A stretch of DNA of 44,653 nucleotides, taken from the NCBI GenBank assembly GCA_020053945.1, contig JAGVME010000111.1, forward strand, positions 1 through 44,653. The letters run 5' to 3'. This DNA is from Gammaproteobacteria bacterium (GTDB lineage: Bacteria > Pseudomonadota > Gammaproteobacteria > Ga0077554 > Ga007554). The notes under the pieces are model-generated. The model saw nothing but the letters and a program-made list of their open reading frames with translations, was not told where the DNA came from and made no database searches. Both the position numbers and the translations under genes were made by a program. Every line of letters begins with the position of its first letter. Position 1 is the first letter of the stretch. Below are positions 23,399 through 42,839 of this stretch, piece after piece.

Positions 23399-24958
23399 AT
23401 GATAACGAGTAAGACTCTGTGGGTGGCGTTGTGGGTACTACTTGCGGCGATGGGTTCCGCGCACGCGGAAGACGCGAAATTTGACGTATTCGAATACCGG
23501 GTAGAAGGCACGACACTGTTGCCGGTCATCGTGGTCGAGCAGGCGGTGTATCCCTATCTTGGCGATCAGAAAACCCTCGCCGATGTGGAACAGGCGCGCG
23601 AGGCGCTGGAAAAGGCCTATCACGGCGCGGGCTATCTCACCGTGCTGGTGAGTATTCCCCAGCAAAAGGTCGATAGCGGTGTGGTGAAGTTGACGGTGAC
23701 GGAAGCGCCGGTCGGCCGGTTGCGTGTCGTCGAGTCGCGCTATTTCAGCCCCGGCGAGATCCGCGCGGCCGCGCCGGAACTGGCGGAGGGGAAGGTGCCG
23801 CATTTCCCCAAAATGCAAAAAGAACTGGCGGCGCTCAACCGCAGCGCTGACCGCCGCATCACCCCCGTGCTACGTTCCGGCAAGACGCCGGGCACGGTGG
23901 AGGTCGATTTGAAGGTGCAGGACACGCTGCCGCTGCACGGCAATGTGGAAGTCAACGACCGCTATAGCCAGGACACCACGCACACCCGCCTCAGCGCTAG
24001 CCTGCGCTGGGACAACCTGTGGCAGAAACAGCATGGTGTGGGGCTGACGGTGCAGACCGCGCCGGAAAAACCCGATGAAAGCAAAGTGCTTTCGGCCAGC
24101 TATACCTGGCCGCTGGCTTCCGGAAATTATCTGGCCTTTTACGGCGTGAAATCGGATTCCGACGTGGCGGCGGTGGGCACGCTGAATGTGGTGGGCAACG
24201 GCGTAATTTTAGGCGCGCGTTACATCCTGCCGCTGCAGGGGCGTGAGGCCTTCTTCCACACTGCCACGTTAGGTCTCGATTACAAAGACTTCAACCAGTC
24301 GGTGAACCTGATCGGCAGCGGTGGTTTCAACACGCCGATCACCTATTTGCCGTTCACCCTGGGTTGGGATGGCACCTGGCTCGGCGCAGGCCGCACCACC
24401 AAATTCGGCGCAGCGTTCAATTTTCACCTGCGCGGGCTGGTGGCGGAGGAGCAGGAGTTCGCCGACAAGCGCTTCAAGGGACGGCCGAATTACGCTTACC
24501 TGCGCGGCAGCGCATCGCATAACGCAACCTGGGGCCGCGGCTGGGGTGTGAACGCGCGCGCCGGTTGGCAGCTCGCCGCGCAGCCGCTGATTGCAAACGA
24601 ACAGTTCGCCATCGGCGGGGTTGACACCGTGCGCGGTTATCTTGAATCCACCTCGCTCGGCGACAATGGCATCGCGCTCAGCCTGGAGGCGGCGACACCC
24701 AACTTCGCAAAACGGCTGGGCGCATCGCTCGATGACCTGCATCTGCTGGTGTTTGCCGATGGGGGATGGGTGCATGTACGCAGCCCGTTGCCGGAGCAGA
24801 AAGACCAATTTTCGTTGGCAAGCGCCGGGCTGGGGCTACGCCTCAAGGCATGGAAAGGCATGTCGGCCGGGCTGGACTGGGCCGTGGCGCTGGAGGAAAC
24901 CGGCAAGATACAGGCGGGCGACAACCGCGCGCATTTCCGGTTGGGTTATGAATGGTGA
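23399..24958 (+). CDS. TpsB two-partner secretion outer-membrane transporter
   Basis: A 519-residue ShlB/FhaC-type transporter that exports the TpsA partner across the outer membrane. A signal peptide (LWVALWVLLAAMGSAHA) is followed by two POTRA domains: FDVFEYRVEGTTLLP... to KLTVTEAPVGRL (about residues 25-110) and about 110-190. A 16-strand barrel follows, including DRYSQDTTHTRLSASLRWDN and the family-type FAIGGVDTVRGYLESTSLGD (VRGY, the L6 loop motif). The C-terminal strand ends in aromatic Trp. The start at ATG 23399 gives the signal peptide but has no normal ribosome binding site because a REP palindrome abuts it; a longer frame runs through the REP array and is rejected. Confidence 0.93.
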   Translation: MITSKTLWVALWVLLAAMGSAHAEDAKFDVFEYRVEGTTLLPVIVVEQAVYPYLGDQKTLADVEQAREALEKAYHGAGYLTVLVSIPQQKVDSGVVKLTVTEAPVGRLRVVESRYFSPGEIRAAAPELAEGKVPHFPKMQKELAALNRSADRRITPVLRSGKTPGTVEVDLKVQDTLPLHGNVEVNDRYSQDTTHTRLSASLRWDNLWQKQHGVGLTVQTAPEKPDESKVLSASYTWPLASGNYLAFYGVKSDSDVAAVGTLNVVGNGVILGARYILPLQGREAFFHTATLGLDYKDFNQSVNLIGSGGFNTPITYLPFTLGWDGTWLGAGRTTKFGAAFNFHLRGLVAEEQEFADKRFKGRPNYAYLRGSASHNATWGRGWGVNARAGWQLAAQPLIANEQFAIGGVDTVRGYLESTSLGDNGIALSLEAATPNFAKRLGASLDDLHLLVFADGGWVHVRSPLPEQKDQFSLASAGLGLRLKAWKGMSAGLDWAVALEETGKIQAGDNRAHFRLGYEW

Positions 24959-24963
24959 GGGAA

Positions 24964-25134
24964 ACGTCGGCAAGAGAGGCGTCGGCAAGGTGTTGCCGAC
25001 CTACGGTGGATGATGGATGCACCGGAAACCTCATGTCGTACGGCGGCAATACTTTGCCGCCGTAACCTACGGTGGGGTGATGGATGTAACACGAAACCTC
25101 GCGTCGTAGGGCGGGAACACTTTCCCGCCGTAAC
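24964..25134. repeat. REP cluster after tpsB
   Basis: A partial and a full class B palindrome are at 24964-25007, a variant (CGGCGGCAATACTTTGCCGCCG) at 25041-25062, and a class A copy at 25101-25131. They lie between tpsB and the transposase and share the CCTACGG flank. Confidence 0.88.
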
Positions 25135-25145
25135 TGGGAAGAAAA

Positions 25146-25640
25146 TCAGTCGAGCTGCATATCCGCGACGTCCGTAGGTTCGTGGTTACCCCAGTCATTC
25201 GAATAGGCGCCACGCTCCCGCCAGGCGTGAAAGGATGAATACGGCCAGTCAGCCGGGCGCGTGCAGTGACCGTGCTTGACGGGGTTATAGTGGATGTAAT
25301 CGAGGTGGCGATGCAAATCGCCGTCATCGCGGATGAGGTGATCGTAAAAGCGGTCTTGCCAGAGCGGGCCGGTGACGCCGCCAGCCTTGAGCGCCCAGGT
25401 GAGGTCACGCTTGAATGCCGCGACCACTGCGGAAAAATTGGTGTTGGCAGGTTCGAACAGCCAATGCAGATGATCGGGCAGGACGACATGGGCGTGGTGG
25501 CGGAATGGATGCTTGTCACACGCACGGTGCATCGAAGCCGACACCTGCACAGCGCGCTCCACGAGCCAAGGACGCCGACGGTGCGTAACCAGGGTGACGA
25601 ATACCGGGTCGGGCCGATAATAACGGCGGTAATTGGGCAT
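25146..25640 (-). CDS. REP-associated tyrosine transposase (RAYT)
   Basis: A 164-residue Y1 transposase of the IS200-like RAYT group. Starting at MPNYRRYYRP, it has FVTLVTHRRRPWLVE near the N-terminus, the HUH metal motif in VVLPDHLHWLF, and the catalytic tyrosine region YIHYNPVKHG. RAYTs cut and join single-stranded REP palindromes and are thought to spread them. Here it is flanked on both sides by the two REP classes that also surround tpsB and tpsA, so it is probably their mover. An ATG at 25652 is an alternative start; the frame open to 25838 is REP-derived. It lies antisense between tpsB and tpsA, which normally adjoin. Confidence 0.92.
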   Translation of the reverse strand: MPNYRRYYRPDPVFVTLVTHRRRPWLVERAVQVSASMHRACDKHPFRHHAHVVLPDHLHWLFEPANTNFSAVVAAFKRDLTWALKAGGVTGPLWQDRFYDHLIRDDGDLHRHLDYIHYNPVKHGHCTRPADWPYSSFHAWRERGAYSNDWGNHEPTDVADMQLD

Positions 25641-25724
25641 GCGGGTCAGCATAGCACGGTGTGAACTGCGTGTGTGACACCCGTTGTTGGGGATGATGCA
25701 ACGGGAAAATATCGGCAAGTGGTA

Positions 25725-25808
25725 TACGTAGGGCGGGAACACTTTCCCGCCGTGTGCCGAGTGGCGCACTCCGACAGAGAGGCGTCGGCAAAGTATTGCC
25801 GACCTACG
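25725..25808. repeat. REP pair between RAYT and tpsA
   Basis: A class A copy is at 25725-25753 and a class B copy at 25781-25808, with a 27-bp spacer. The pair lies just before the putative Pho promoter of tpsA. Confidence 0.9.
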
Positions 25809-25837
25809 ATAAGTGAGCGGCGAATGATGCGCCCCCA

Positions 25838-25871
25838 CGGTAACACAAACTTAACATAAGCATGCTAAATA
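25838..25871 (+). promoter_or_regulatory. Possible PhoB box upstream of tpsA
   Basis: CGGTAAC and ACTTAAC are spaced by ACAA; 10 nt later is TAAATA. The first half-site is good (6/7 to CTGTAAC), the second weak (4/7), the -10 weak. A start near 25878 would leave a leader of about 46 nt before the tpsA ATG and exclude the longer in-frame start at 25862. Confidence 0.4.
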
Positions 25872-25924
25872 GTCAGACGGCCACGCAGCATTTTAGACTG
25901 TTGGCCCTTTGTCAGGAGAATCCA

Positions 25925-28900
25925 ATGAATCGCAACTGTTACCGGCTAGTCTTCAACCCCACTTTAGGCATGATGGTGCCCGCACCGGAAACCGCGCGCA
26001 GTCGGGGTAAATCTGGCCAGGGCAAGGTAGCGGGTGGCGCGGCGTTGGCGCTGGCTGGCGCGGTGCTGGCGGGGGCGGTGTCTCCGAATATGGCGCAGGC
26101 CGAGCTGCCGGTGCCGAGCGCGGGTGGGGCAATTCCGGGTTTCGTGAGCGCCGGGCAAGCGGCCTACCAGGTCAATGGTACCCAGGCGTTGATCAATCAG
26201 GTGGGTGATAAGTCCATTCTCAATTGGCAGAGCTTTAACGTCAGCCCCGGGCACGACGTGCAGTTTCGTCAAGTAGATGGCCTCGCCACCAACAATCTGG
26301 TGCCGGGCGCCAATTTCACTTCGCTCAACCGCATCTGGGACCTCAATCCCAGCGTCATCGCAGGCAGTATTTCGCAGGCAGCGGGTCAGCAGGCGAATGT
26401 GATCCTGGTCAACAGCAACGGTATCGCCTTCATGGGTGGCTCGCAGGTAAATTTGAGCAGTTTCACGGCGAGCAGCCTGGATATCGCTGATAAGTTCGTG
26501 CTCGACAGTTTCCTCACCAATAACTCGCTCACCCCGCAGTTCGAGGGTACGGGCGGTTTCATCAAGGTGTTCGAGGGCGCAAAAATCACGGCGGGCAGCT
26601 TCGGCCGGGTGATGTTGATCGCGCCGACGGTGGTGAACAAGGGCATGGTTGAAGCGCCCGACGGCCAGGTGATCGCGGCGGCGGGCACCAAGGTGTTTCT
26701 GCGCTTGGCAGCGGGGCAGGGGCAGGGTGATCTGGGTCACAATGTGCGCGGCCTGCTGGTGGAAGTGGACAGCCCGGACGGACTGGCTGATTTTGAAACC
26801 GCCAACACTACGGTAAAGGATGGCGTGCTTGACGGACAAGTGGTGAACCTGGCCCACGCGGTGGAAGACAAGCTCGGCCATGTCACCAACCTGGGCGCAC
26901 TGTCCACGCCGCGCGGTAACGTCACTATGATCGGCTATGCGGTCAACCAGCACGGCATCGCGCGGGCGACGACTTCGGTGGTGGCGAACGGTTCGGTGTA
27001 CCTGTTGGCGAAAGACGAGGCGGTCAGCAGCACGGCCGAGGCCGCGAGGCGTGGCGGCCTGGTGATCCTGGGCGCCGGCAGCGTCACTGAAGTGTTGCCA
27101 TACGTGGCCGACGCCGCTCGCGCGCAGGATGGCCGTACGGGCGGCGCCGGGTTGGAAAAAGCATCGCAGGTATGGGCGCTAGGGCAGGATATCCGCATGG
27201 AAGGCGGGGCAGTCATTGATGCACCCGCGGGCGAAGTTAATTTCATCGCGGTGGAAAATCCCGGTGACCTGGCTACGCCTAGCACTAATCCTTTCAAGAC
27301 CGTAACCGTAAACGCTCCAGCATCGGGTACGGCGCGCATCCATATCGCTGACGGTGCGCGTATCAACGTGGCTGGCCTCGAAAACGTGCAGGTCTCCGCC
27401 GCGCGCAACAGCGTCGAAGTTGAACTGCGTGGCGACGAATTGAAGGATTCCCCCGTCAATCAGCAAGGCCCGTTGCGTGGACAAAAAGTCTATGTCGATA
27501 TTAACCAGGCGTTGGCGAACGCCAACTCGGGCAAATCGACGCTGATCACCAAGGATAGCCTCGAAAGCTACCAGGCGCGGCTGGAACGCACCGTGGCCGA
27601 GCGTTCGACGGCGGGTGGTGCGGTGAATATCCGTTCGCAAGGCGAAGCCATTCTGGAAAGCGGTGCGGTGATTGACCTGTCAGGCGGCAGCGTGCAGTAC
27701 ACTCCGGCCACCGTCAAAACCACCTTGCTGACGTCAGGCGGCAAGAACGTCGACATTTCCGACGCCGACGCCGAAACGCGCTATGACGGCATCGCCACGC
27801 GTTATGTGAAGGACTACGGGCGCTGGAACGTCAAGGAAGTGATTGATCTGGGGCAGAGCTTCCGCTATGACCCGGGCTATGTCGAAGGCAAGGACGCTGG
27901 CACGTTGAACGTGATCGGCATAAAGGCGGTGCAGCTTCAGGCTGACCTCCAGGGCAAGACCGTGACCGGCGAATTGCAGCGCGAAGCGGGAATCCAGCCC
28001 AAAGGCGCGAGCCTCACGTTGGGCAGCGACACGGTCCCGAGTGATTACAAACTCAACCAGCGCATTGTGATCGGCGCCGCGACACCCGCGGAGATCCATG
28101 CGCTTGCGTTGAATCCTACGCTATTTAGTGAAGATAAGATCGCCAACCTGCAGATATTCAGCAACCAGGCCGCCGAGGTGCGCGAAGCGCTGCGCCTGCC
28201 GCAGGGGGGCAGCGTGGCAATCACGGCCAAAGGCGTGGCGGTGAATGCTGATGTGGAAACGATGGCGGGTGCAATCAGTTTCAAGGCACGCGACAACAGC
28301 GTCGACCAAGTCACGGTGCCGCTTGATGTGACGGTGGCCGATGGCGTCACGCTGTCGGCGCGCGGCGCCTGGGCGAATGATCTGCCATCCGCGCCGGGCC
28401 ATTCCGGCGAAGCGGCGCGGGTGAACGGTGGCTCGGTTAGCTTGTCGGCGGCGGATGTGGTGCTCGGCACGGGCACGCTCATTGATGTGACGGGCGGTGG
28501 CCGCGTTAAGCCGGACGGCAAGGTGATGGTCGGCAATGGCGGCGATGTGGTGCTGGAGGCTGGCATGGTGGGCGCCTCCTTAGCCAGCGTTCGGCTGGGC
28601 GGCGAGGTGCGGGGGCACGCGTTGGGCAAAGGCGGCACGTTCACGCTTAATAGCGGAAAAATCCAAATCGGCGGCGTGGCCGATCCGGCGGCCCTTAACC
28701 TTGAGGCCGATTTTGTGGCGCAAGGCGGCTTTGCCAATTTCAACCTTACCGGCCGTGATGGCGTGACGGTGGCTGACGGCGTGACGCTGACGCCCCGGGT
28801 GGAAAGCCTGGAGTTACAGCCGGGCTATGGCTTGCAGGCGACCGGCAGCCGTATCGAAAACTTTTCCCGCACTCTGGTCCGTGATGACCGCACTCGCGAG

Positions 28901-31900
28901 GCCGCTAACCTGACGCTGATTGCCGACAGCGCTAGCTTCGGTGTTGTGAAAATCGGCGAGGGTGCGCGCATTTTGGCGGACGACGGCGCCCACGTAACAA
29001 TCACCGCGGGCAAGCGCATTGAGCTTCAGGGGCAGGTAAAAACGGCAGGGGGCAACATCAATGCCACGCTTAGCCGCCCCAACCAGGATTTCGATCCCAC
29101 CCAGACACTGTGGCTGGGGCCGCAGGCGCAGCTTGATGCCAGCGGCGCGGCACGGACATATCTGGACAGCAAGGGTAACCGGATAGGCGAAGTGCTGGGC
29201 GGCGGCACAGTCAATCTCAATGCCGGCAGGGGGTTCATCGTGACCGCTGCGGGCGCGACGATCGAAGCGAACGGCGTAGCACCAGTACGGCTTGATGTGC
29301 CAAACGAGGCGGGCGGTTTAGGGCGCATGGTCGGTAGCGATGCTGGCACCATCAGCATCGCCGCGCGCGAAGGGGTGGTGCTCGACGGCACGTTGTCGGC
29401 GCAGGCAGGAAGTGCTGGGCAACGCGGTGGCACGTTCATGCTGAGCCTCGGCGATGACGACACGCTACCGGGGACAGGTTATCCGACAAATGAGCGGATC
29501 ATAAGCCTGGCTCCGGTCACGGTGGTTCAGGGAGGCGAGCTTGAGCCCGGCGCGGCGGTTCCGTCCGCTTTCAATGGACAGGCCCGGCTGGGCGCCGATG
29601 CCCTGGAGACCGCCGGGTTCGAGCGCATTGTGCTGAAAAGCCGTGACGTTGTCCGCTTGGAAGATGGACTCGATCTTGGCGCTGGGTGGAGCGTGCCGTT
29701 GCGCGAAATCCAGCTCGATGCGCCGCGCCTCGAAACCGCAGGCGGTGCCGCGAGCCTCATCGCACATATGATCCGTCTCGGCAATTACGATAGCGGGCGC
29801 CAGGATGTTGTGAACACCCCCACGACGGGAACCGGCACGTTCAAGGCTAATGCGCAATTGCTGGAGCTGGCAGGCAATCAGACCTTGACGGGAATGGCGC
29901 GTACCGAGTTAACCGGCACACAGGAGATTCGCCTGAGGGGGATTAGCACCCCGACCAACGCGCGGCCTGCCGGGGCGCTCAAGAGCGCCGCCGATCTTGC
30001 GCTGCATGGCGCGCTTATCGCGCCTTCCACCTACAGCCTGTACACACTGGATGCGGCGGGGCGAACCATCGAGTTCACGCGCAATGCGCGGGTACCGGTG
30101 CAGCCGCTATCGGCGCTGGGCAACCTGACAGCCAAGGCGGAGGATATCGTGCAGGACGGCAATTTGTGGGCGCCGTTCGGACAGATCGACTTGCAGGCGA
30201 GCAACAGCCTGGTATTCAAAGACGGTAGCCTGACTTCGGTTGCCGCCGCGCCGGGGAACCTGATACCGTTTGGCAAAGTCGTGAACGGACGCGCCTGGAT
30301 AATGGACGTGGACGGTTCCAAGATTGAAATTAAAACCTTGCCGGAAAAATCGATCCGCATGGAAGCCGCCAGCATCGACATGCAGGCAGGCGCGAAGCTC
30401 GATCTCGCGGGTGGCGGCGACTTGCAGGCCTATGAATTCACCGTGGGGCCGGGTGGCTCGCGCGACATTCTCACTGACAAGAACACCTACGCTATCCTGC
30501 CCGGTTACGCGAGTGGGTTTGCCCCCAGCGACGCGCAGGAAAGTTTCGAGCGTTCGGGTGGCGATGCCGTCTACCTATCCGGCGTACCAGGTCTGGCTGA
30601 CGGCGTTTATACCCTGCTGCCCGCGCACTATGCCCTGCTGCCGGGTGCGTATGCGGTCAAGCTCGACACGGGTATCCAGGACCTGTTGCCCGGCCAGGCC
30701 TACAGCCGCCAGGATGGCGTTCGCGTCGCCGCCGGGTATGTGACCGACAGCCGCGCCAACGCGCCGCGTGACGCTGGCTGGCAGGGTATCCAGGTATTGA
30801 CCCGTGATCAGGTGCGGGCGCGTTCCGAGATTACGTTGACCCACGCCTCGGAGTTTTTTGCCGAGGGTAAGAACCGGCCCCAGGACGCTGGCCTGTTGTC
30901 GATCGTCACTACCGGCACCGGTAGCGATAGCCTGAAACTCGACGCGGTCTACAAGCTTGACGCGGGCAGCGGCGGGCGCGGCGCGGCGGTGGACATCAGC
31001 GCGTTGAAGCTGGCGATTACCAGTGGCGCCCCGTCGGGTATTGACTCGGATGTGACGCAGATCGACGTGGACAAGCTTAACGCGCTGGGCGCGGAGAGCC
31101 TGTTTATCGGCGGTACGCGCAGCGTCGGCAGCGATGCCACTACGCTCGCAGTCGGCGCGGATAGCGTCATGCTCGCCAATAATGCCGATCATGCTTTGCA
31201 AGCCCCTGAGGTCATTCTTGCCGCCAAAGATACGCTCACGCTCAAGTCCGGTAGCCTGATCGACGCGCAAGGCCCGGCTCAGGCTGAGGCCGATGATGCA
31301 GTGCGCTATGAGAGCGCAGGCGAGGGCGCGCTGGTACGCGCGGCCGCCACCCCGGCGAGCTTTACCCGCACCGCTAGTCCCCCCGGTATATTAATTACCC
31401 GAGGCACGCTTGTCGGCGAAGCGGGCAGCAAGGTGATCGCCGCCGATGCGATCACGCTCGACGCGACCCGGGACAACGCATTCAAAGGCGTGGTCGAGTT
31501 TAATAAAGAGGGCGCGGCGGTTGCGGGCAATCTGGCCGTGGGCGCAACGCGCATCAATTTCGGCGCGGCGCCCACAGGCAGCGAGGGCATTACCTACAGC
31601 CAGGCCGGCCTGGATGCGTTGAACAGCCTGGAAAGCATGGTGCTGACCAGTTACAGTACGTTCGATCTGTACGGCGATGTTAACGTGGGCGGGGTGGATA
31701 TCAACGGCAAACCCACGCTGCAAAATTTGACCCTGCAGGGTGCCGGATTGGCTGGCTTCAATAATAGTGGCCAGACGGCCAACCTGCGCGCGCAAAATCT
31801 CATGCTCGCCAATCCGGCTGCGGCAGCCTACACCCTGGCACCGGGTGGCGCGCCCGGTGATGGCACGCTCGCTATCCTCGCCGACACGCTTACCTTGGGT

Positions 31901-34900: not shown

Positions 34901-36976
34901 ATTGCGAGTGGCCAAGGTGTCGGAAGCGGCGCGTCGGCCAAACCGCTCTACACGATTTTGGCGCTGGGCGACGTGCAGGCGCAGGTGCAGGCGCAAGGCG
35001 AACTCGATATCCACGCCCTTATCAATCCGCATCTGGTGGTGCAGTCGTCCGGTGCGGGCGCGAATGTCAATGTCGGAAATCCAGGCAGCGCGCTCTGGAG
35101 TCTATTTTCGACCTACGGCGAAGACAGCGCGGCGTCTCTGCTCAGCTTGGGCGGCGCAGTGAATTTCCGCAACGCGCCGGGCGGTTCGCAGACGCTTGCC
35201 TCAATTCCGAACGTCTACAAACCCCCGCTCAACTTTAGTTTCAACTCGTCCCTCGGGGCATTGGTATTGTTACCGGCAAACCTGAATCTGGTCTCGTTCC
35301 AGGATGATGTGCTATTTGGGGGCTCGTCAGCCGTCATGCGTCCGGCGGCGCGCGGGGACCTGAATCTGTTGGCCGCAGGCACGGTCAGTCTGTCGGTTTC
35401 ACTGAACCTGACAGATATGGCGCCGATGCCGGACGCCATCTGGCTGGCAAGCAACACAAACGGGTTTTCACCGGCACCCTTACATTCAGGAGATTTCAAG
35501 CCTGCTGTAGTATATGCGGTTGCGGGCGATGTCGCCGGTGTGGGCAACAAACTGAATTTGACACTGGCCAAGGCCGTGAATGTGCGGGCGGGGCGGGATG
35601 TGATCGACCTTGGCATCAGCGCCCAGCATCCGAACGCGGATGATGTCAGCCGCGTAGAAGCCGGGCGGGATGTCCTTTATTCCACTAGCACGGGCCGAAA
35701 TAGCGGGTCTTATATCTGGGTCGCGGGTTCGGGGCGGCTTGAAGTGGTCGCTGGCCGCAATATTGATCTAGGGACATCGGCGGGTATCGTGAGCCGCGGC
35801 AATCTTGATAACCCGGCGCTTCCCGTGGGCGGCGCCGATATTCATGTGGCGGCGGGTGTGGGCGCAGGCGGGATCGATTATCAGGGCGCAGTGAACCGGC
35901 TGATTGCCAAACTGGAGGCCGGAACACCAGATGACGCCACGCTGTGGCAGGGACGCTGGCTCACTGGCGATATATCGTTGAGCGCCGCTGACGTGCTGAC
36001 GCGGGTCATTGAAAAAGTAGGTACACAAGATGCCAATACCCAGCGCGCGCGGGTGCGCGATATGCTGTTCACCGCGTTGCGCACCACAGGCCGCGATTTC
36101 AACGACCCTGCCAGCCCGTTTGCGGGCGACTACGCGCGGGGTTATGCCGCGCTGGAAACGGTTTTCCCGGGAATCAGGGAGCAGGAGGCGGAGGGTACCT
36201 TCAAAAACTACCAAGGTGACATCAATCTGTTTGCCAGCCGCATCATCACTGAGCGCGGCGGTGATATTGAATTCATCACGCCGGGCGGGCAGGTTGTCGT
36301 GGGTCTGGGCAACACCCCCGCCGCGTTGCTCCAGACCGAAGTGCCTGGGTCGGGTATCGGGCTTAAGGACAGCGGCGTACTCGGCATGGCGACGGTTGCC
36401 GACGGTAGCATTCGTGGGATTGCGCGTGGCGACATTCTGGTGAACCAGTCACGTATCCTTACCGTGGGCGGTGGTGATGTGCTGCTGTGGTCGAGCGAAG
36501 GCGACATCGACGCGGGCAAGGGCAAGAAAACGGCGACGTCGGTGCCGCCGCCGCTGACCCTGATCGACAGTCAGGGCAACGTCACCCAAGTGTTACAGGG
36601 CGCAGCATCGGGTAGCGGCATTGGCGCGCTCATCCCGGTGGGAGGCCGCGCGGGCGACGTCGACTTGATCGCCCCCACGGGCACGGTCAACGCAGGCGAC
36701 GCCGGTATCCGCGCAGGCAACCTCAACATCGCCGCGCAGGTGGTGCTGGGGGCGGACAACATTTCTGTTTCGGGCACCGCCACTGGCACCCCGGTGGCGG
36801 ATACCCGCGCGGTTACCGCGACGTCTTCCGGGGCGGTGACGGCGGGGGATGATGTCTCCAAAACTACCGCCGCATTATCGCAAAACCTGGCCGATGCCAC
36901 CCGCGCGGCCGAGCAATTGAAGCAAGCCTTCAAGCCCTCGTTTGTGAGCGTGGAAGTGGTCGGGTTTGGTGAATGA
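25925..36976 (+). CDS. Giant TpsA filamentous-haemagglutinin-family exoprotein (3683 aa)
   Basis: The ATG at 25925 has ribosome binding site AGGAGA and begins an extended signal peptide: MNRNCYRLVFNPTLGMMVPA, a basic stretch, then a hydrophobic core of Ala/Gly/Val. Next is the TPS secretion domain (about residues 60-300) with NWQSFNVSPGHDVQF, SIISGSI-like VIAGSISQAAGQ and NSNGIAFMGGSQVNL. Residues about 300-3000 are beta-helix-type repeats rich in Gly/Asp/Ala. Residues about 2347-2604 differ and resemble phage tail-fibre repeats. Near the C-terminus (about 3100-3600) is a DUF3739-like region with MRPAARGDLNLLAAGTVSLS, and the end SFVSVEVVGFGE is typical. It is secreted by the TpsB encoded upstream. 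Ligand or target unknown. Confidence 0.93.
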   Translation: MNRNCYRLVFNPTLGMMVPAPETARSRGKSGQGKVAGGAALALAGAVLAGAVSPNMAQAELPVPSAGGAIPGFVSAGQAAYQVNGTQALINQVGDKSILNWQSFNVSPGHDVQFRQVDGLATNNLVPGANFTSLNRIWDLNPSVIAGSISQAAGQQANVILVNSNGIAFMGGSQVNLSSFTASSLDIADKFVLDSFLTNNSLTPQFEGTGGFIKVFEGAKITAGSFGRVMLIAPTVVNKGMVEAPDGQVIAAAGTKVFLRLAAGQGQGDLGHNVRGLLVEVDSPDGLADFETANTTVKDGVLDGQVVNLAHAVEDKLGHVTNLGALSTPRGNVTMIGYAVNQHGIARATTSVVANGSVYLLAKDEAVSSTAEAARRGGLVILGAGSVTEVLPYVADAARAQDGRTGGAGLEKASQVWALGQDIRMEGGAVIDAPAGEVNFIAVENPGDLATPSTNPFKTVTVNAPASGTARIHIADGARINVAGLENVQVSAARNSVEVELRGDELKDSPVNQQGPLRGQKVYVDINQALANANSGKSTLITKDSLESYQARLERTVAERSTAGGAVNIRSQGEAILESGAVIDLSGGSVQYTPATVKTTLLTSGGKNVDISDADAETRYDGIATRYVKDYGRWNVKEVIDLGQSFRYDPGYVEGKDAGTLNVIGIKAVQLQADLQGKTVTGELQREAGIQPKGASLTLGSDTVPSDYKLNQRIVIGAATPAEIHALALNPTLFSEDKIANLQIFSNQAAEVREALRLPQGGSVAITAKGVAVNADVETMAGAISFKARDNSVDQVTVPLDVTVADGVTLSARGAWANDLPSAPGHSGEAARVNGGSVSLSAADVVLGTGTLIDVTGGGRVKPDGKVMVGNGGDVVLEAGMVGASLASVRLGGEVRGHALGKGGTFTLNSGKIQIGGVADPAALNLEADFVAQGGFANFNLTGRDGVTVADGVTLTPRVESLELQPGYGLQATGSRIENFSRTLVRDDRTREAANLTLIADSASFGVVKIGEGARILADDGAHVTITAGKRIELQGQVKTAGGNINATLSRPNQDFDPTQTLWLGPQAQLDASGAARTYLDSKGNRIGEVLGGGTVNLNAGRGFIVTAAGATIEANGVAPVRLDVPNEAGGLGRMVGSDAGTISIAAREGVVLDGTLSAQAGSAGQRGGTFMLSLGDDDTLPGTGYPTNERIISLAPVTVVQGGELEPGAAVPSAFNGQARLGADALETAGFERIVLKSRDVVRLEDGLDLGAGWSVPLREIQLDAPRLETAGGAASLIAHMIRLGNYDSGRQDVVNTPTTGTGTFKANAQLLELAGNQTLTGMARTELTGTQEIRLRGISTPTNARPAGALKSAADLALHGALIAPSTYSLYTLDAAGRTIEFTRNARVPVQPLSALGNLTAKAEDIVQDGNLWAPFGQIDLQASNSLVFKDGSLTSVAAAPGNLIPFGKVVNGRAWIMDVDGSKIEIKTLPEKSIRMEAASIDMQAGAKLDLAGGGDLQAYEFTVGPGGSRDILTDKNTYAILPGYASGFAPSDAQESFERSGGDAVYLSGVPGLADGVYTLLPAHYALLPGAYAVKLDTGIQDLLPGQAYSRQDGVRVAAGYVTDSRANAPRDAGWQGIQVLTRDQVRARSEITLTHASEFFAEGKNRPQDAGLLSIVTTGTGSDSLKLDAVYKLDAGSGGRGAAVDISALKLAITSGAPSGIDSDVTQIDVDKLNALGAESLFIGGTRSVGSDATTLAVGADSVMLANNADHALQAPEVILAAKDTLTLKSGSLIDAQGPAQAEADDAVRYESAGEGALVRAAATPASFTRTASPPGILITRGTLVGEAGSKVIAADAITLDATRDNAFKGVVEFNKEGAAVAGNLAVGATRINFGAAPTGSEGITYSQAGLDALNSLESMVLTSYSTFDLYGDVNVGGVDINGKPTLQNLTLQGAGLAGFNNSGQTANLRAQNLMLANPAAAAYTLAPGGAPGDGTLAILADTLTLGEGDKAIQGYGNVTITANEMLGEGVGKTNIAASTMLNVARISGERGANQTLTANGALTATKHIADRALAPVNALGARWALAGTSVDFNTQAVLPSGQFKLTATGGDVTLGADARVDVAGRSVQFFDVSRPTWGGTAKFVSETGNVTFAAGSKVDVSAAPGSDAGKLIVHAAHGTATLADGSVQGNALPDAEGNRGDGARFDLDVNTLASFSALNTVLNQGEFDGARSVRVRTGDLNVAASDSVKAHDIKLAADSGALTVQGELNADGREGGSIQLYSGGRLTLADGAKLSARALQAGRDGGTVTLGSTDEDTVLAGGSIDTAGAAGGQDGTVLIRASRTDDTAFTHLYAPLPDTGTANNYKVSLKGVTAASSLLRGLVVSFVPKFTNKASSKLSINNTAAKDIWYNGAVVKADRIKANETVYMVYDGTRFNIVDAPFANRTASAVPGTSTSSRTTTTYVVSQPGFISYKPGQTVVYTPDADNTATINKLNVNGLGAKDIKYNNVNLAAGFLKAGEPVYLVYDGTAFQVALEANTPRAVGTATALAVTATRELSAGDSYAFVAGANSDAGGTTLTLNGVTAPLLKNGADLAAADIKSNNLVYVTYDGAAFHLLTELAAKVDVGQGVRVTSVAGDYTKAIGTSITGASSIVVEAVRTYDALTVNGGGVLDANRLSADAYRYLPKAERDNVKATLVGATPAFDATKFHLRPGTEIQYTGNIAMLRDINLADYRYGGEPGVLTVRAAGNLDIQGNLSDGFNVATSAYDHDNKIATALVPADLLGGESWSYRLIAGADHAAADPLAVRADVGDVTLAAGKLIRTGTGDIYIASGKDIKLADNKAAIYTAGRLADPQSGFTAPTNISNSLNFAQFSQNGGNVSLTALNDIVGKPSAQLYSNWLFRQGKVDAATGQYTLQPAWWVRFDQFQQGIGALGGGDVSMNASGKIENVSASTPTQARMAATAPDASQLVTTGGGDVRVETGGDLLGGQYYADLGEFVIKSGGTIASGQGVGSGASAKPLYTILALGDVQAQVQAQGELDIHALINPHLVVQSSGAGANVNVGNPGSALWSLFSTYGEDSAASLLSLGGAVNFRNAPGGSQTLASIPNVYKPPLNFSFNSSLGALVLLPANLNLVSFQDDVLFGGSSAVMRPAARGDLNLLAAGTVSLSVSLNLTDMAPMPDAIWLASNTNGFSPAPLHSGDFKPAVVYAVAGDVAGVGNKLNLTLAKAVNVRAGRDVIDLGISAQHPNADDVSRVEAGRDVLYSTSTGRNSGSYIWVAGSGRLEVVAGRNIDLGTSAGIVSRGNLDNPALPVGGADIHVAAGVGAGGIDYQGAVNRLIAKLEAGTPDDATLWQGRWLTGDISLSAADVLTRVIEKVGTQDANTQRARVRDMLFTALRTTGRDFNDPASPFAGDYARGYAALETVFPGIREQEAEGTFKNYQGDINLFASRIITERGGDIEFITPGGQVVVGLGNTPAALLQTEVPGSGIGLKDSGVLGMATVADGSIRGIARGDILVNQSRILTVGGGDVLLWSSEGDIDAGKGKKTATSVPPPLTLIDSQGNVTQVLQGAASGSGIGALIPVGGRAGDVDLIAPTGTVNAGDAGIRAGNLNIAAQVVLGADNISVSGTATGTPVADTRAVTATSSGAVTAGDDVSKTTAALSQNLADATRAAEQLKQAFKPSFVSVEVVGFGE
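32965..33735 (+). repeat. Three phage-tail-fibre-like protein repeats inside tpsA
   Basis: Three units follow the pattern L-x-[IVL]-N-x ... K-x-I-x-x-N ... x-A-x-x-[IL]-K-A/S-x-x-x-V-Y-x-V/T-Y-D-G-x-x-F. Examples are SINNTAAKDIWYNGAVVKAD then VYMVYDGTRF; NVNGLGAKDIKYNNVNLAAG then VYLVYDGTAF; TLNGVTAPLLKNGADLAAAD then VYVTYDGAAF. Such NGLGAK...VYDGTxFQL repeats are known from phage tail fibres. DNA here is slightly richer in A/T than its surroundings. Confidence 0.75.
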
Positions 36977-36994
36977 TTTCCGGGCGCCTGAAAA

Positions 36995-37065: not shown

Positions 37066-37090
37066 ATGGGAGGAGTTACGGTTTTCGGCT

Positions 37091-37135: not shown

Positions 37136-37301
37136 AGCAGCCTGTCTGACTTAGGTCGAATCTACTGTGAAAGTGGGAGAGCGGTTCATTTTTCCGCTAT
37201 TTTTCGTTAAATAGTGCCCGCTATTCGCCTCAAAATAGCGGAAAACTGCCCTCGTTCTCCCACTTTCTCGCTACGATCCCCTAAGTCAGATAGGCTGCTA
37301 G
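37134..37301. repeat. 168-bp nested palindromic element in the operon leader
   Basis: The outer 22-bp arms CTAGCAGCCTGTCTGACTTAGG (37134-37155) and its complement at 37280-37301 differ at one base. Inside are GAAAGTGGGAGA (37169-37180) with TCTCCCACTTTC (37256-37267), and TTTTCCGCTATTTT (37190-37203) with AAAATAGCGGAAAA (37232-37245). The nested arms would fold into one long hairpin. Form and size fit a miniature inverted-repeat element. It has no coding content and lies between promoter and exbB start. Confidence 0.85.
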
Positions 37302-37349
37302 CAACGGTTAAGTCTTCCAACTATATTTTCTAAAATCATCCCAAATCAA

Positions 37350-39122
37350 ATGAAACGTCTTATCGCCCTCGTTGTGCTGCTACTGGTATTGCCCGCGTCC
37401 GCCCAGGCTTGGTGGAATGAAGAATGGACGGTGCGCAAAAAAATCACTCTGGATACCCAGGCGGCGGCTGTGCCGGTTGAGGTGGATGTGGTGCCGGTGC
37501 TGGTGCGTCTTTCCACCGGCAATTTCGACTTTCTTTCCGCCAAAGAGGATGGCTCGGATATCCGCTTTGTGGCGGAAGACGACACCACGCCGCTCAAGTT
37601 TCATATCGAGCGCTACGATGGCATTAACGAATTGGCTTTCCTCTGGGTGCAGGTGCCGAAACTGGCTGGCAATAAGGCCGCCCAGTCTATCTGGCTTTAT
37701 TACGGTAATGCACAAGCGGCTGCCGCCGACAGCAAGGCCAGTAATGATTATGGCTACGACACGTCGCAATTACTGGTTTATCACTTGAATGAAACGCAGG
37801 GTGTGCCGCAGGACGCCACGGCCAATGGCACTCATGCCAGCACCGCCAAGCTGGCCTACGTATCCGGTAGCTTGATCGCCGGGGGCGCCAAACTGGCAGG
37901 TGACGGCGGCATGGTGGCCGACAGCCCGGCGTTACAGGCAGCCCGGGAATTCACTTTTTCCGCCTGGATCAAGCCCGGGAAAGCCGATGGCGAGTTGCTG
38001 GCATTGGGCGGTTTGACGCTCAACCTGTCCGGCGGGGTGCCGGTGCTGGCAGTCAACGGCGTGAAGACGCGCGCGGCCGCATCGATTCCGCTGAATGCCT
38101 GGCATCACATCGCGGTGACGGGCGTTTTCACAGGGGAACAGGGCGGTGGCGGGACGCAGGGTTTTACCCTGTATGTGGATGGTAAGTCAGTAGTCACCAC
38201 AACGGGCACGCTGACGCCCGCGGCCAGCCTGCGCATCGGCGGCGGTTTAGTCGGCGAAATGGATGAAGTGCAGGTGTCAACGGTGGCGCGTCCCGCCGCG
38301 TGGCTGGCGGCGCAGGTGGAATCGCAGGGGCAGGCGGGCAGGCTGGTGAAATACGGCGAAGACGAAACCACCGATAGCAGCGAGGGCACATCCTATTTCA
38401 CCACCACCATGCAAAACGTGACGGTGGACGGCTGGGTGGTGATCATCATCCTGGCGTTCATGTTCGTGATTGCGGTATGGGTAATGGTGACCAAAGCGCT
38501 CCTTTTAGGACGAATGGAAAAAGCCAACGCAACTTTCGCCGAAGAGTTTGGCAAGATGTCACGCGGGCTGGCGGAACTGGACGACAGCGTAACCGCCCAC
38601 GCGGGCAAGATGGACCATCTAGCCAAAATGATGGATGAGTTCAAACATTCTTCCCTGTACCGCATTTATCATGTCGGCGTGACGGAATTGAAACACCGCT
38701 TTCCGTCTTCCGCTAGCGCAGTGGGCGCGCCGGATAGTTTGCCCGTGATCTCCCCCCAATCCATCAACGCGGTGCGCGCCAGCCTGGATGCGCAATTGGT
38801 GCGTGAAGGGCATCGCCTGAACCAAGCAATGGTACTGCTCACTATAGCTATTTCCGGTGGCCCCTTTCTCGGCCTGCTGGGTACGGTGGTCGGGGTGATG
38901 ATCACGTTCGCGGCGATTGCCGCCACCGGCGACGTCAACGTCAACGCTATCGCGCCCGGTATCGCGGCGGCGCTGGTAGCCACCGTAGCCGGTTTGGCGG
39001 TGGCGATTCCGGCGCTGTTTGGTTACAACTACCTCACCTCCAAGATCAAAACCATCTCGGCTGACATGCACATATTTGTGGATGAGTTCATCACCAAAAT
39101 GGCCGAGAATTACGGGGGCTGA
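37350..39122 (+). CDS. DUF2341-LamG-ExbB/TolQ fusion protein
   Basis: A 590-residue protein. A signal peptide (LVVLLLVLPASAQA) is followed by WWNEEWTVRKKITLDTQ, the opening of DUF2341 (about 20-130). A LamG/concanavalin-like jelly roll follows (about 140-325; FTFSAWIKPG, AWHHIAVTGVF, LYVDGK, GEMDEVQVS). From residue about 355 comes an ExbB/TolQ/MotA proton-channel unit with a membrane segment VIIILAFMFVIAVWVMVTKA, a cytoplasmic helical part, and the conserved last two helices (GGPFLGLLGTVVGVMITF; APGIAAALVATVAGLAVAIP). ExbB drives TonB from the proton-motive force. The periplasmic lectin-like extension is absent from normal ExbB and could sense or bind a ligand. It is the first gene of the operon, two bases from exbD. 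Confidence 0.9.
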   Translation: MKRLIALVVLLLVLPASAQAWWNEEWTVRKKITLDTQAAAVPVEVDVVPVLVRLSTGNFDFLSAKEDGSDIRFVAEDDTTPLKFHIERYDGINELAFLWVQVPKLAGNKAAQSIWLYYGNAQAAAADSKASNDYGYDTSQLLVYHLNETQGVPQDATANGTHASTAKLAYVSGSLIAGGAKLAGDGGMVADSPALQAAREFTFSAWIKPGKADGELLALGGLTLNLSGGVPVLAVNGVKTRAAASIPLNAWHHIAVTGVFTGEQGGGGTQGFTLYVDGKSVVTTTGTLTPAASLRIGGGLVGEMDEVQVSTVARPAAWLAAQVESQGQAGRLVKYGEDETTDSSEGTSYFTTTMQNVTVDGWVVIIILAFMFVIAVWVMVTKALLLGRMEKANATFAEEFGKMSRGLAELDDSVTAHAGKMDHLAKMMDEFKHSSLYRIYHVGVTELKHRFPSSASAVGAPDSLPVISPQSINAVRASLDAQLVREGHRLNQAMVLLTIAISGGPFLGLLGTVVGVMITFAAIAATGDVNVNAIAPGIAAALVATVAGLAVAIPALFGYNYLTSKIKTISADMHIFVDEFITKMAENYGG

Positions 39123-39124
39123 CC

Positions 39125-39544
39125 ATGGCAAAAGCTCAGGAAGAAGGCGCGCTATACGACGATATCAACGTTACGCCGATGCTGGATCTGGCCTACGTAT
39201 TGCTGATTATTTTTATCATCATGACCACCGCGTCAGTGCAGGGCATCAAGGTCAACCTGCCCAAAGCCAGCAATACCCCGAGCCTGGCGAAGCCCACCAC
39301 CAAGGCGATCACGATCACCCAGGACGGGACACTGTATCTGGATGCGTATCCGGTCGCGTCGTTGCAAGATCTGGAATCCCGGCTGATGGCTTATAAGGCC
39401 AGCACCCCGCAATTTCCGATCGTGGTCAAAGGTGATTCCGCTGTGCAGTACCAAAAAGTAATCGAGGTGCTGGATTTGCTGGGACGCCTGGAACTCACCC
39501 AGATCGGACTCGTGACGCAGCGGTCAGGAGTCAAGCATGAGTAA
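39125..39544 (+). CDS. exbD: ExbD/TolR-type proton-channel subunit
   Basis: A 139-residue single-pass inner-membrane protein. The helix MLDLAYVLLIIFIIMTTA contains the conserved membrane Asp that carries protons in ExbD/TolR, preceded by DINVTPM. The periplasmic domain has the usual TKAITITQDGTLYLD and PIVVKGDSAVQYQKV pattern. It works with the ExbB domain encoded just upstream (2-bp gap). Its last codons lie in one arm of a 22-bp inverted repeat, and its stop overlaps a short ATGAGTAA frame. Confidence 0.94.
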   Translation: MAKAQEEGALYDDINVTPMLDLAYVLLIIFIIMTTASVQGIKVNLPKASNTPSLAKPTTKAITITQDGTLYLDAYPVASLQDLESRLMAYKASTPQFPIVVKGDSAVQYQKVIEVLDLLGRLELTQIGLVTQRSGVKHE

Positions 39545-39682
39545 CTTGAACAATTGGCCGCTTGCAGGCGAGATGCCATGCGAGGCGTCGAATGCGCGGT
39601 GTGGCAAGCCACATAAGCATTCGACAACGACGCAGGGCGCTCGCATGGAAGATGGACAATGTTCAAGTTACTCATGCTTGAC
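39530..39682. repeat. Palindromic element at the exbD-tonB junction
   Basis: A perfect 22-bp inverted repeat, GTCAAGCATGAGTAACTTGA and two more bases at 39530-39551, recurs inverted at 39661-39682. Inner arms such as CCATGCGAG...CTCGCATGG extend the pairing. The heptamer AGTCAAG occurs at both borders (39529-39535 and 39688-39694) and may be a target duplication. A 50-codon frame (39537-39689, good ribosome binding site AGGAG) runs through it; its product looks repeat-derived. Confidence 0.8.
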
Positions 39683-39693
39683 GACTTAGTCAA

Positions 39694-40350
39694 GTGAGCG
39701 CAGCGGACAAGACTTTGCGGCGCTGGCGTCCCGCGCTGGTGGTGGGCATCGGATTGGTGTTGGTGACGGTGCTGATCTGGTTGGCGATCAAGGAATTCGT
39801 GGTCGCGGATAAAGACAAAAAGAAGCGCGTGATTCAGGAGATATCGCTGGTAAGGCCGCCTCCACCGCCCCCACCACCGCCGAAAAGAATTGAAGAACCG
39901 CCCAAGCCGGAGATTCCGCAAAAAGTCGATGTGCCCAAGCCGGATCAGCCCCCCGACAAGCCGGTAGAGGCGCCGCCCCCCGATACGGGCATACCGGACG
40001 GTCCTGCAGGAGGAATGGCAACGGATCTGGCCGTAGGCACCGGTAGCGGCATTATTGGCGGGGGCGGCGGCATTGGCAACCGCTTTGCCTGGTACGGCGC
40101 GCTGGTTAAGGAGCGCATCCAGGAAGCGGTGGCACGGGATAAAAAACTACGCGAGGCGGATTACCGGATCATGGTCAACGTCTGGATCAATGCCAGCGGT
40201 ACAGTGACCCAGGCCGAGTTGATTAGCTCCACTGGCGATACGGAGCTGGATAGCGCGCTTAAAGTAGCCTTGCGTAATCTGCCGCCATTACGTGAAGGGG
40301 CGCCCGGGGATATGCCGCAACCGATTAAATTACGGATTACCGCGCGCTGA
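39694..40350 (+). CDS. tonB: TonB-family energy transducer
   Basis: A 218-residue protein with N-terminal membrane anchor (ALVVGIGLVLVTVLIWLAI), a proline-rich periplasmic spacer starting VRPPPPPPPPPKRIEEP, a Gly-rich linker and a C-terminal TonB domain (about 130-218) with ALVKERIQEAV, VNVWINASGTVTQAELISST and PIKLRITAR. TonB carries energy from ExbBD to outer-membrane receptors. No TonB-dependent receptor gene is in the window; a porin follows instead. The GTG start at 39694 has no clear ribosome binding site, apparently because the palindromic element separates it from the AGGAG at the end of exbD. Confidence 0.9.
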   Translation: MSAADKTLRRWRPALVVGIGLVLVTVLIWLAIKEFVVADKDKKKRVIQEISLVRPPPPPPPPPKRIEEPPKPEIPQKVDVPKPDQPPDKPVEAPPPDTGIPDGPAGGMATDLAVGTGSGIIGGGGGIGNRFAWYGALVKERIQEAVARDKKLREADYRIMVNVWINASGTVTQAELISSTGDTELDSALKVALRNLPPLREGAPGDMPQPIKLRITAR

Positions 40351-40377
40351 CAGGCGGATTTTAACGAGAAGACATTA

Positions 40378-41949
40378 ATGAGTGAACATATGCAAACCCG
40401 GCGAAAAATAATGCGACCTTCAATGATTGTAACAGTGTGTATGGCAATGGCATTAGCCATAAACACTGCCCAGGCCGACGAACGCGAAGAGATGGAGACG
40501 CTGCGGCAGACCACACTCAACCTGATCCAGATCTTGGTGGAACAAGGCGTGCTCACCCAGGAAAAAGCCGACCAGCTTATCAATCAGGCTGAGGTAAAGG
40601 CCGGGGAAGCCGTGGCGGCGGAGAAGAAGGCTAATATTGGCGTGGTGCGTGTGCCGTATGTACCGGAGTCGGTCAAGAAACAGATCGCCGATGGGCTGCG
40701 TGAAGAAGTAACCGCTAAGGCAAAAGCCGAGCGGTGGGGCAACGTGAACGCGGTGCCGGAATGGCTCGACAGGCTCACGTGGGAAGGGGATATGCGTGTG
40801 CGTTACCAGGGTGATCTGTTCCCCGAGGGCAACGCCCCCGAGGTTTACTTTCAGACCCTCGGTCAGGCGGTCAGCAACACCACTGAGGATCGTCACCGCG
40901 CGCGCATCCGTCTGAACTTGGGGCTGAATGCCAGGGTTGCGCCCGGCGTCAATGTCGGTGTGCGCATGGCCACCGGTAACACCAGCGATCCGGTGTCGAC
41001 CAACCAGACGCTCGGCACCACAGCCAATAAATACAGCCTGGTACTTGATCGCGCCTTCATTAAAATCGCGCCACTGCAAAGTGTGAGTGTGAGCGGCGGA
41101 CGCATTCCCAATCCCTGGTTCGGCACCGATCTGGTGTGGGATGTCGACCTCAATTTCGAGGGTGTAGCCGTTGGCTTTAATCCTTGGGCGAATGAAGTGC
41201 GTGCGTTCAAACCCTTTGCTGTGGCCGGGATATTTCCATTGCAGGAAGTCGAGAAAAACACGAATATTAAAGTCAAGGATAAATGGCTCTACGGCGCTCA
41301 GCTAGGCTTGGACTGGATACCCGGCGTACACGAGCGTTTCAAGGTGGGGGTGGGCTATTATGACTATCGTAATGTCAGCGGAGTTCCAAACCCGAAGTTG
41401 AATGACACCCAGTTCAATCAGACCGCACCGCAATCGCGCCAAAAAGGTAACAGCCTCTTTAATATCGACAACGACGGCAATGTCAATACCAACCTTTACG
41501 CATTGGCCCCGGATTACCGGATTGTTAACGTCACGCTGGCTGTCGGCTTTGCCCAGTTCTTTCCCCTCCATGTCATTGGCAATTTCGATTGGGCGCGTAA
41601 CGTCGGTTTCGATCAGGCCGAAATCCTGACGCGCACCGGGCAGAGTATCGAACCTGAAACCGAGGCCTACCAGGCCAAGCTCACCGTTGGCTATCCAGAA
41701 ATTACCGACCGCCACGAATGGCAGGTCTTTACGGGTTATCGCTATCTGGAGCGCGATGCGGTGCTGGACGCCTTCACCGATTCTGACTTCTATCTCGGCG
41801 GCACCAACCACAAGGGATTCATGATCGGTGGCCAATACGGCATTTACAAAAATACCTGGTTGTCGATGCGCTGGGCGTCGATGGATGAAATCAGCGGCCT
41901 GCCACTCTCGATTGATGTCTTCCAGCTTGATCTGACCGCCAAGTTTTAA
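40378..41949 (+). CDS. Putative outer-membrane porin with N-terminal coiled coil
   Basis: A 523-residue protein. After the signal (IVTVCMAMALAINTAQA) is a helical stretch (about 35-120: EEMETLRQTTLNLIQILVEQ and EKADQLINQAEVKAGEAV), then a beta-barrel-type sequence from LTWEGDMRVRYQGDLFPEG to the C-terminal strand DVFQLDLTAKF ending in Phe, as barrels do. This layout fits the putative-porin (Porin_5-like) family. In this operon it is the only outer-membrane partner available for the TonB/ExbBD unit. Substrate unknown; an anion or phosphoester role would fit the Pho context but is not shown. Confidence 0.85.
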   Translation: MSEHMQTRRKIMRPSMIVTVCMAMALAINTAQADEREEMETLRQTTLNLIQILVEQGVLTQEKADQLINQAEVKAGEAVAAEKKANIGVVRVPYVPESVKKQIADGLREEVTAKAKAERWGNVNAVPEWLDRLTWEGDMRVRYQGDLFPEGNAPEVYFQTLGQAVSNTTEDRHRARIRLNLGLNARVAPGVNVGVRMATGNTSDPVSTNQTLGTTANKYSLVLDRAFIKIAPLQSVSVSGGRIPNPWFGTDLVWDVDLNFEGVAVGFNPWANEVRAFKPFAVAGIFPLQEVEKNTNIKVKDKWLYGAQLGLDWIPGVHERFKVGVGYYDYRNVSGVPNPKLNDTQFNQTAPQSRQKGNSLFNIDNDGNVNTNLYALAPDYRIVNVTLAVGFAQFFPLHVIGNFDWARNVGFDQAEILTRTGQSIEPETEAYQAKLTVGYPEITDRHEWQVFTGYRYLERDAVLDAFTDSDFYLGGTNHKGFMIGGQYGIYKNTWLSMRWASMDEISGLPLSIDVFQLDLTAKF

Positions 41950-42052
41950 GTTCACGATCTTGCGGAAGGGCGCATCGCGACGTTAAAAATAACCTTAATC
42001 GGCCACTGTTGTCTTGCCTGGCCAGGTGCTATCTCTGGGGTTGCATTTATAT

Positions 42053-42104
42053 TGTCATCCCGAACGTAGAGAGGGATCTTGCTTATACTGTGCCCGGAAT
42101 GACA
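42053..42104. repeat. Small dispersed hairpin element
   Basis: TGTCATCCCG at 42053-42062 pairs with CCGGAATGACA at 42094-42104 imperfectly. The ends match those of the elements at 256-368 and 19531-19609. It lies in the 221-bp gap after the porin, which also holds the AT-rich direct repeat AATAAATAATTTT at about 42131-42159. Confidence 0.6.
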
Positions 42105-42170
42105 TAGGGGAATTAATCAGGGCTTCACCGTAATAAATAATTTTTGAATAAATAATTTTGGAGAATGTTG

Positions 42171-42839
42171 ATGTCGCGTATAGCTGGCTTGCTGGTTCCG
42201 CTCGTGCTGGCGGGCGCTTTGTCGGGTGGCAATGCCTGGGGTGAGGACAAACGCGTTTCGCGGGAGCGTGAAGCGTTGCGTAATGCCCAGCAACAAGTAC
42301 AACAACTCCGTCAGGAAAAAGCCACCTTGGAAGAAAAACTGGCTACTTTTGAACAAGAGAAAGCACGGCTTGCGCAAGAGAAGAAAAAACTCGCAGGCCA
42401 GATTAATGGCGCCCAGGCGCGCGCAGAATCAGAAAGTACGCAACGCCAGCAATTGCAGTTGATGCTTGACGCCATGACCCAGGAAAAAGACACGCTGCAA
42501 GCGCAGAAAACTGAACTTGACCAGCGTCTGGCCGAGTTGACAACCAAGCAAGCCCATACCGAAAATGAGCTGGCGCAAATCCAGGCACAAAAAAAACAGA
42601 TGGAATCCACGCTACTCAGGCGTGAGCAGCAGGTGACCCTCTGCGAAAGTAAAAATCTCAAACTCTATCAGCATGGACGCGACCTGATCGAGCAGTGCCG
42701 TGACCGTAGCGCCACCGACGCAGTGCTGCGCCTGGAGCCATTTACCGGCATAAAACGCGTGGAAATCGAGAATCTGCTTGAAGAATACCGCGACAAACTG
42801 GATGCCCAGAAACCCATTCCCGCCGAAAACCAAAATTGA
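42171..42839 (+). CDS. Exported coiled-coil protein
   Basis: A 222-residue protein with ribosome binding site TGGAG, signal peptide (LLVPLVLAGALSGGNAWG) and a long coiled coil (about residues 30-150) with heptads of Gln/Leu/Glu/Lys. Two Cys (CESKNLKLY; QCRDRS) lie close to the end of the coil, possibly paired, and a short C-terminal domain follows (RLEPFTGIKRVEIENLLEEY). No family is certain. It follows the porin in the same direction and probably belongs to the TonB operon as a periplasmic adaptor; the 221-bp gap makes a separate promoter possible. Confidence 0.75.
   Translation: MSRIAGLLVPLVLAGALSGGNAWGEDKRVSREREALRNAQQQVQQLRQEKATLEEKLATFEQEKARLAQEKKKLAGQINGAQARAESESTQRQQLQLMLDAMTQEKDTLQAQKTELDQRLAELTTKQAHTENELAQIQAQKKQMESTLLRREQQVTLCESKNLKLYQHGRDLIEQCRDRSATDAVLRLEPFTGIKRVEIENLLEEYRDKLDAQKPIPAENQN

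Follow-up and report, generated by a model that had tools for sequence, protein, structure and literature searches.

The DNA analysed here, contig JAGVME010000111.1 of a gammaproteobacterial genome (positions 1–44,653, hereafter the window), carries a set of seven genes at about 23.4–42.8 kb in which a two-partner secretion (TPS) pair adjoins a Ton-type motor. The set consists of tpsB, tpsA, a DUF2341-LamG-ExbB fusion, exbD, tonB, a PF16930 porin gene and a gene for a coiled-coil protein. All seven lie on the forward strand. The domains of a type Vb system are present (Pfam), with a TPS domain in TpsA and POTRA domains and a barrel in TpsB. No TonB-dependent receptor plug was found on the contig; the genome has three such plugs on other contigs, together with a second ExbB/ExbD pair. 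An initial annotation of this DNA had proposed both the one-strand layout and the lack of a local receptor; the first is confirmed by open reading frames (ORFs), Pfam families and coordinates, and the second is borne out for the contig.

The outer-membrane transporter gene tpsB (23,396–24,958; Pfam ShlB and POTRA_2) lies in an ORF of 23,249–24,958, and its likely start was placed at 23,396, before the signal peptide. In the window TpsB only about three residues separate the signal peptide from POTRA; in its relatives the gap is filled by a short, mostly alanine/proline-rich stretch. Alignment to the CdiB chain 6wim_A starts at chain residue 45 and leaves about 44 residues before it, the place of a plug helix and a linker in that family. 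Because POTRA follows directly on the signal peptide, the window TpsB appears to have no room for plug helix H1, and the N-termini of its relatives indicate little or no room for the usual helix. The giant exoprotein gene tpsA (25,925–36,976) lies in an ORF of 25,862–36,976 that encodes 3704 residues; ESPR is at ORF residue 22, and the likely start is 25,925. ESPR is followed by the TPS domain, a β-helix body and a C-terminal DUF3739 domain (PF12545; 36,470–36,796, residues 3537–3645, 138.7 bits, E = 5e-38). Alignment of family ends identified a conserved C-terminal tail, SFVSVEVVGFGE (36,938–36,973); some 45 residues of linker, variable among relatives, lie between it and DUF3739.

The ExbB fusion (37,350–39,122) comprises a signal peptide, periplasmic DUF2341 and LamG domains and then a TolQ/ExbB channel (Pfam). 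The LamG part matches solved lectin-like domains, and DUF2341 has no solved relative. Pore residues Thr512 and Thr545 are invariant in an alignment of 14 sequences (A1), and the membrane aspartate motif of ExbD (TPMLDL; exbD at 39,125–39,544, Pfam and alignment) is also conserved, so the proton channel looks functional. The product of tonB (39,694–40,350) has one membrane helix, a proline-rich linker and a TonB C-terminal domain (PF13103). The porin (40,378–41,949; Pfam E = 1e-162) was modelled with AlphaFold2 (mean pLDDT 72) as N-terminal periplasmic helices and a general-porin barrel of about 16–18 strands without a plug domain. The last gene (42,165–42,839) encodes a secreted coiled-coil protein, modelled with AlphaFold2 as a lone helix of about 150 residues (pTM 0.39), in which Cys160 is invariant in the alignment.

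Genome contigs were scanned for the ExbB fusion, giving 21 loci from Beta- and Gammaproteobacteria, Bradyrhizobium, Desulfurivibrio and Verrucomicrobia. exbD adjoins the fusion in all 21, and tonB, the porin gene and the coiled-coil gene follow in the same order at every locus with sufficient flank. TpsA or TpsB is adjacent in 19 of the 21 loci; at the other two (L006 and L020) no relative of either protein turned up in the 10 kb upstream. Gene order is retained from Burkholderiales to Desulfurivibrio, Bradyrhizobium and Verrucomicrobia. In the last two of these tpsB lies ahead of the fusion, and in the verrucomicrobial locus L021 tpsA comes last. A tandem pair of exbD genes follows the fusion at five loci (L009, L010, L019, L023 and L030).

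Co-occurrence was counted in a class-level sample of 274 genomes and a phylum-level sample of 378, with some genomes in both. DUF3739 was counted above its curated cut-off, the only threshold set beforehand; for the porin and the fusion full-length matches were counted, and a wide E-value gap sets these apart from partial ones. The class sample has 17 genomes with the full DUF2341-LamG part, 18 with DUF3739 and 19 with full-length PF16930. All three occur together in 16 genomes (fusion versus DUF3739, Fisher p = 8e-23). Every genome with the fusion or DUF3739, and no other, has the porin, and those outside the 16 hold two of the three components. The three incomplete genomes are all drafts. 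The contig of G107 that bears exbD, tonB and the porin gene starts just ahead of exbD, and G205 has its porin and TonB genes at contig ends, so that in both genomes the fusion would lie past the contig end; the G110 contig starts 435 bases ahead of the fusion. In the phylum sample DUF3739 and the porin occur in one identical set of 12 genomes, 11 of which have the fusion; the twelfth (G548, a draft) lacks it, and its porin gene starts 2.2 kb from a contig end. Full-length porin, DUF3739 TpsA and ExbB fusion therefore occur all-or-none, apart from four draft genomes that each lack one partner, and the gene set is one conserved unit. The single functional unit proposed in the initial annotation is thus upheld by neighbourhoods and co-occurrence alike; association in the neighbourhoods of other genomes, named there as a check, was found. 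One core may accompany several TpsA proteins: G466 has three TpsA, one fusion and one porin, and the Klebsiella locus L033 has two TpsA. Several TpsA per core were also seen in R. palustris and Janthinobacterium by Llamas et al. (PMC2729926).

The same annotation had regarded the set as possibly undescribed and knew of no established function for it. It corresponds, however, to the PUMA3/σVreI regulon of Pseudomonas aeruginosa, pdtA-phdA-pdtB-exbB2-exbD2-tonB4-PA0696-PA0697-PA0698-PA0699, in which PA0696 is a putative outer-membrane porin, PA0698 is YbjN and PA0699 is PpiC (PMC2729926, PMC4971064, PMC7035377). The PUMA3 cluster adjoins the hxc type II secretion genes and the phosphatase gene lapA, is induced by phosphate starvation in a PhoB- and σVreI-dependent manner and contains a TonB system termed uncharacterized (PMC2729926, PMC4971064, PMC7035377). 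Linkage of TPS genes, ExbBD and PA0696 in several genera had already been recorded by Llamas et al. (PMC2729926). Like PUMA3, the window set joins a TPS exoprotein and its transporter to a dedicated ExbB–ExbD–TonB trio, a putative outer-membrane porin and one more secreted protein; downstream of tpsB the gene orders agree, and an alkaline phosphatase gene is close by. Unlike in PUMA3, tpsA in the window sits between tpsB and exbB. The window has no vreAIR, YbjN, PpiC or Hxc type II secretion genes and, with vreAIR absent beside the set, its regulation may differ from that of PUMA3.

Correspondence to the P. aeruginosa genes was assigned from the way the genes are ordered and annotated and from loci of Burkholderia, Klebsiella and Methylosinus that bridge the two. 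On plasmids of Klebsiella (L033) and Methylosinus (L029), vreA-, vreI- and vreR-like genes and genes for YbjN and a PpiC isomerase accompany those for TpsA, TpsB, the DUF2341 ExbB fusion, ExbD, TonB, the porin and the coiled-coil protein. Most of the PUMA3-type gene list is present at loci of Burkholderia (L031), Variovorax, Cupriavidus and Bradyrhizobium (L022). The protein families of the window are those of the loci bearing vreAIR, YbjN and PpiC genes, the hallmark of PUMA3. On these grounds we regard the identity as solid: the window locus is very probably a PUMA3/Pdt-type TPS system with its own Ton motor. In Klebsiella quasipneumoniae (L033) the whole set, with the regulators and at least two TpsA genes, is on a plasmid typed as conjugative. 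A gene for a REP-associated tyrosine transposase (25,146–25,838, reverse strand; NF047646, 128 bits) lies between tpsB and tpsA in the window, and REP-like palindromic repeats occur around it and before tpsB (23,142–23,396, 24,935–25,134 and 25,715–25,808). P. aeruginosa PA0691 (phdA), between tpsA and tpsB, is also described as transposase-like.

A short C-terminal peptide, often V(E/Q)V(I/L)GFG, is common to the TpsA proteins whose ends are complete. A strict pattern, chosen after the first tails had been seen, was found within the last 150 residues of 24 of 39 TpsA ends and nowhere in 60,189 other TpsA residues; the remaining ends mostly have degenerate forms of the tail, and a few are fragments or wrong matches. 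In PUMA3-type TpsA the tail is present in two copies about 30 residues apart (e.g. VEILGYG and VQVLGAG). A TonB-dependent receptor of the related genome G003 has PTVEVIGK at the position of the TonB box, and the TpsA of the same genome ends in FLTVEVIGFGD; the shared core VEVIG is a suggestive likeness. The tail is conserved, although its identity as a TonB box is not proven, and it suggests that the motor may act on TpsA itself.

The best overall explanation, which we place a little below an even chance, is that of a PUMA3/Pdt-type TPS system with a Ton motor, with TonB engaging a periplasmic TpsA tail. For its passage across the outer membrane TpsA would use a TpsB devoid of the usual plug helix, and the β-helix of TpsA would fold outside the cell while the short tail (V-E/Q-V-hydrophobic-G-F-G) remained in the periplasm. 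The C-terminal domain of TonB, driven by the ExbB(DUF2341-LamG)/ExbD channel, could grip this tail like a TonB box and pull or release it, and whether the giant surface protein is presented, retained or released would then depend on the proton motive force. The attachment-porin-like porin, the long helical protein and the LamG domain would form a periplasmic scaffold, and in some genomes one core would serve several TpsA proteins. We infer this mechanism, that is, the location of the tail, its contact with TonB and the effect on TpsA. Action of TonB on TpsA/TpsB is possible, and we hold it with some reserve. More tentative still is a type Vb pathway powered by the proton motive force, in which the dedicated TonB would engage a TonB-box-like tail through a plug-less TpsB and so present, hold or release the giant protein. 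Several observations weigh against tail engagement. Standard TPS secretion needs no energy source (PMC5422565). A weight matrix built from 19 TonB boxes of related receptors fails to separate the tails from the β-helix interior; three of 14 tails exceed the 95th percentile (p = 0.07), and no signal is left without the VEVIG-type boxes. Second trios of ExbB fusion, ExbD and TonB also exist with no TpsB or porin alongside.

The main alternatives are a Tol-like envelope brace and action of TonB on the porin. The families that give ExbB and ExbD their best scores are TolQ and TolR, below the curated cut-offs (for the fusion the closest NCBIfam model is tolQ, at 117 bits). The best solved Foldseek match of the porin is the attachment porin OmpM1 (TMt 0.74), and a helix of about 150 residues would be long enough to cross much of the periplasm. 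These features would suit a tether of Tol–Pal type, in which a TolQR-like channel, LamG, the long helix and the attachment porin brace the wall under the exoprotein and do no direct work on TpsA. The transducer is, however, TonB-like, passing the TIGR01352 cut-off and scoring below that of TolA, and a tether leaves the conserved TpsA tail unexplained; we consider it unlikely.

The initial annotation had named the porin or the TPS machinery as the partner that TonB may energize. If it is the porin, a ligand caught by TpsA would be imported through it, much as HxuA and HxuC act for haem. The porin gene lies directly downstream of tonB and is as strictly linked as TpsA is, and alkaline phosphatases occur near some loci, namely in the window, L012 and L036. 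The predicted barrel has N-terminal helices and no plug, however, and its best structural matches besides OmpM1 are MOMP, PorB and other passive porins, with no TonB-dependent receptor among them; nor is a ligand indicated. Import through the porin is accordingly not favoured, and we rate it as quite unlikely. Nothing in the analysis supports TpsA as a catcher of DNA or phosphoesters. A link to phosphate is plausible from the nearby alkaline phosphatases and the PhoB-dependent P. aeruginosa counterpart. A scan of the window for pho boxes gave best sites with 11 of 14 positions, one at 19,561, none of them convincing. The unit, the absence of a local receptor and the phosphate link are thus retained from the earlier interpretation, and the novelty of the set, polymer capture and porin import are not.

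The Agl–Glt gliding machinery has a similar list of parts, including a proton channel, a TonB-like protein, an outer-membrane barrel, a periplasmic coiled coil and a giant surface protein. This likeness, which no computed result supports, raises the idea of TpsA as an adhesin set in motion by the motor, which would produce retraction or surface motility. No homology to Glt proteins was seen, though no test aimed at it was made; we know of no PUMA3 motility phenotype and consider this very unlikely. The three receptor plugs of the genome would also allow the Ton complex to serve TonB-dependent receptors elsewhere and be merely co-regulated with the TPS genes. The strict all-or-none link with TpsA and the porin argues against such service, as do two genomes (G002 and G005) that have receptors and in which the set was not found, making it highly improbable.

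Further features were recorded around the set. A 521-residue secreted protein of no known family (21,418–22,983, forward strand), with relatives adjoining tpsB in L030 and, weakly, in L118, is a possible accessory. The alkaline phosphatase gene (13,388–14,956, forward strand), a possible regulon neighbour, adjoins a gene for a 238-residue protein (15,053–15,769), and the pair is also beside the set in L012. The stretch 13,388–18,766 holds these two genes and one for a protein with lamin-tail, endonuclease/phosphatase and RTX parts that resembles extracellular nucleases. Three PEP-CTERM proteins are encoded in the window (12,552–13,325, 18,818–19,339 and 20,329–21,282), and tails of this or a similar kind are likewise encoded close to the set in L030, L006 and L020. 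A near-perfect inverted repeat with 29-nucleotide arms and a 6-nucleotide loop (19,538–19,601) lies in a gene-poor stretch. The second copies of the fusion–ExbD–TonB trio, which lack porin and coiled-coil genes, were located at L114 9019–12,143, L119 7906–10,805 and L118 14,151–16,995, beside V-type ATPase genes in L114 and L119 and within a type II secretion operon in L118. The same type II secretion cluster of L118 encodes a 214-residue protein that combines a TPS domain with a PEP-CTERM-like end (17,008–17,652, reverse strand).

Literature searches on DUF3739, and on filamentous hemagglutinin with ExbB and LamG, found nothing; for DUF2341 with ExbB the sole relevant find was a paper on stator evolution (PMC12505986). 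Its passages on the domain list DUF2341 as an unexplained extra domain on MotA/ExbB-like A subunits of generic ion transporters, and give it neither a function nor a TPS link. Phosphate-starved and infecting cells of P. aeruginosa strongly induce their counterpart of the set, and no role is known for its TonB system or porin. Added here are the all-or-none triad, the conserved TpsA tail (duplicated in PUMA3-type proteins), a TpsB predicted to have little or no space for the usual plug helix, a plug-less OmpM1-like porin in the model and a long single-helix protein. The strict linkage, the core shared by several TpsA proteins and the conserved tail offer a specific, testable target for the PUMA3 TonB. 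By association, the triad also indicates approximately what DUF3739, DUF2341-LamG-ExbB and full-length PF16930 do; at present their names are generic or say nothing of function. If true, the proposed mechanism would break the rule that type V secretion has no energy source, which is the accepted view (PMC5422565).

Among known systems, HxuCBA of Haemophilus influenzae (PMC4873976, PMC5422565) likewise combines a TPS exoprotein with a TonB-energized outer-membrane step, and the C-terminus of HxuA is expected to be periplasmic, as is proposed here for the TpsA tail. HxuC is a TonB-dependent receptor, whereas the window set has none and its outer-membrane partner is a plug-less porin. FhaB/FhaC and CdiA/CdiB share with the window pair the TPS domain and an Omp85-type TpsB with POTRA domains, and differ from it in having no linked Ton motor.

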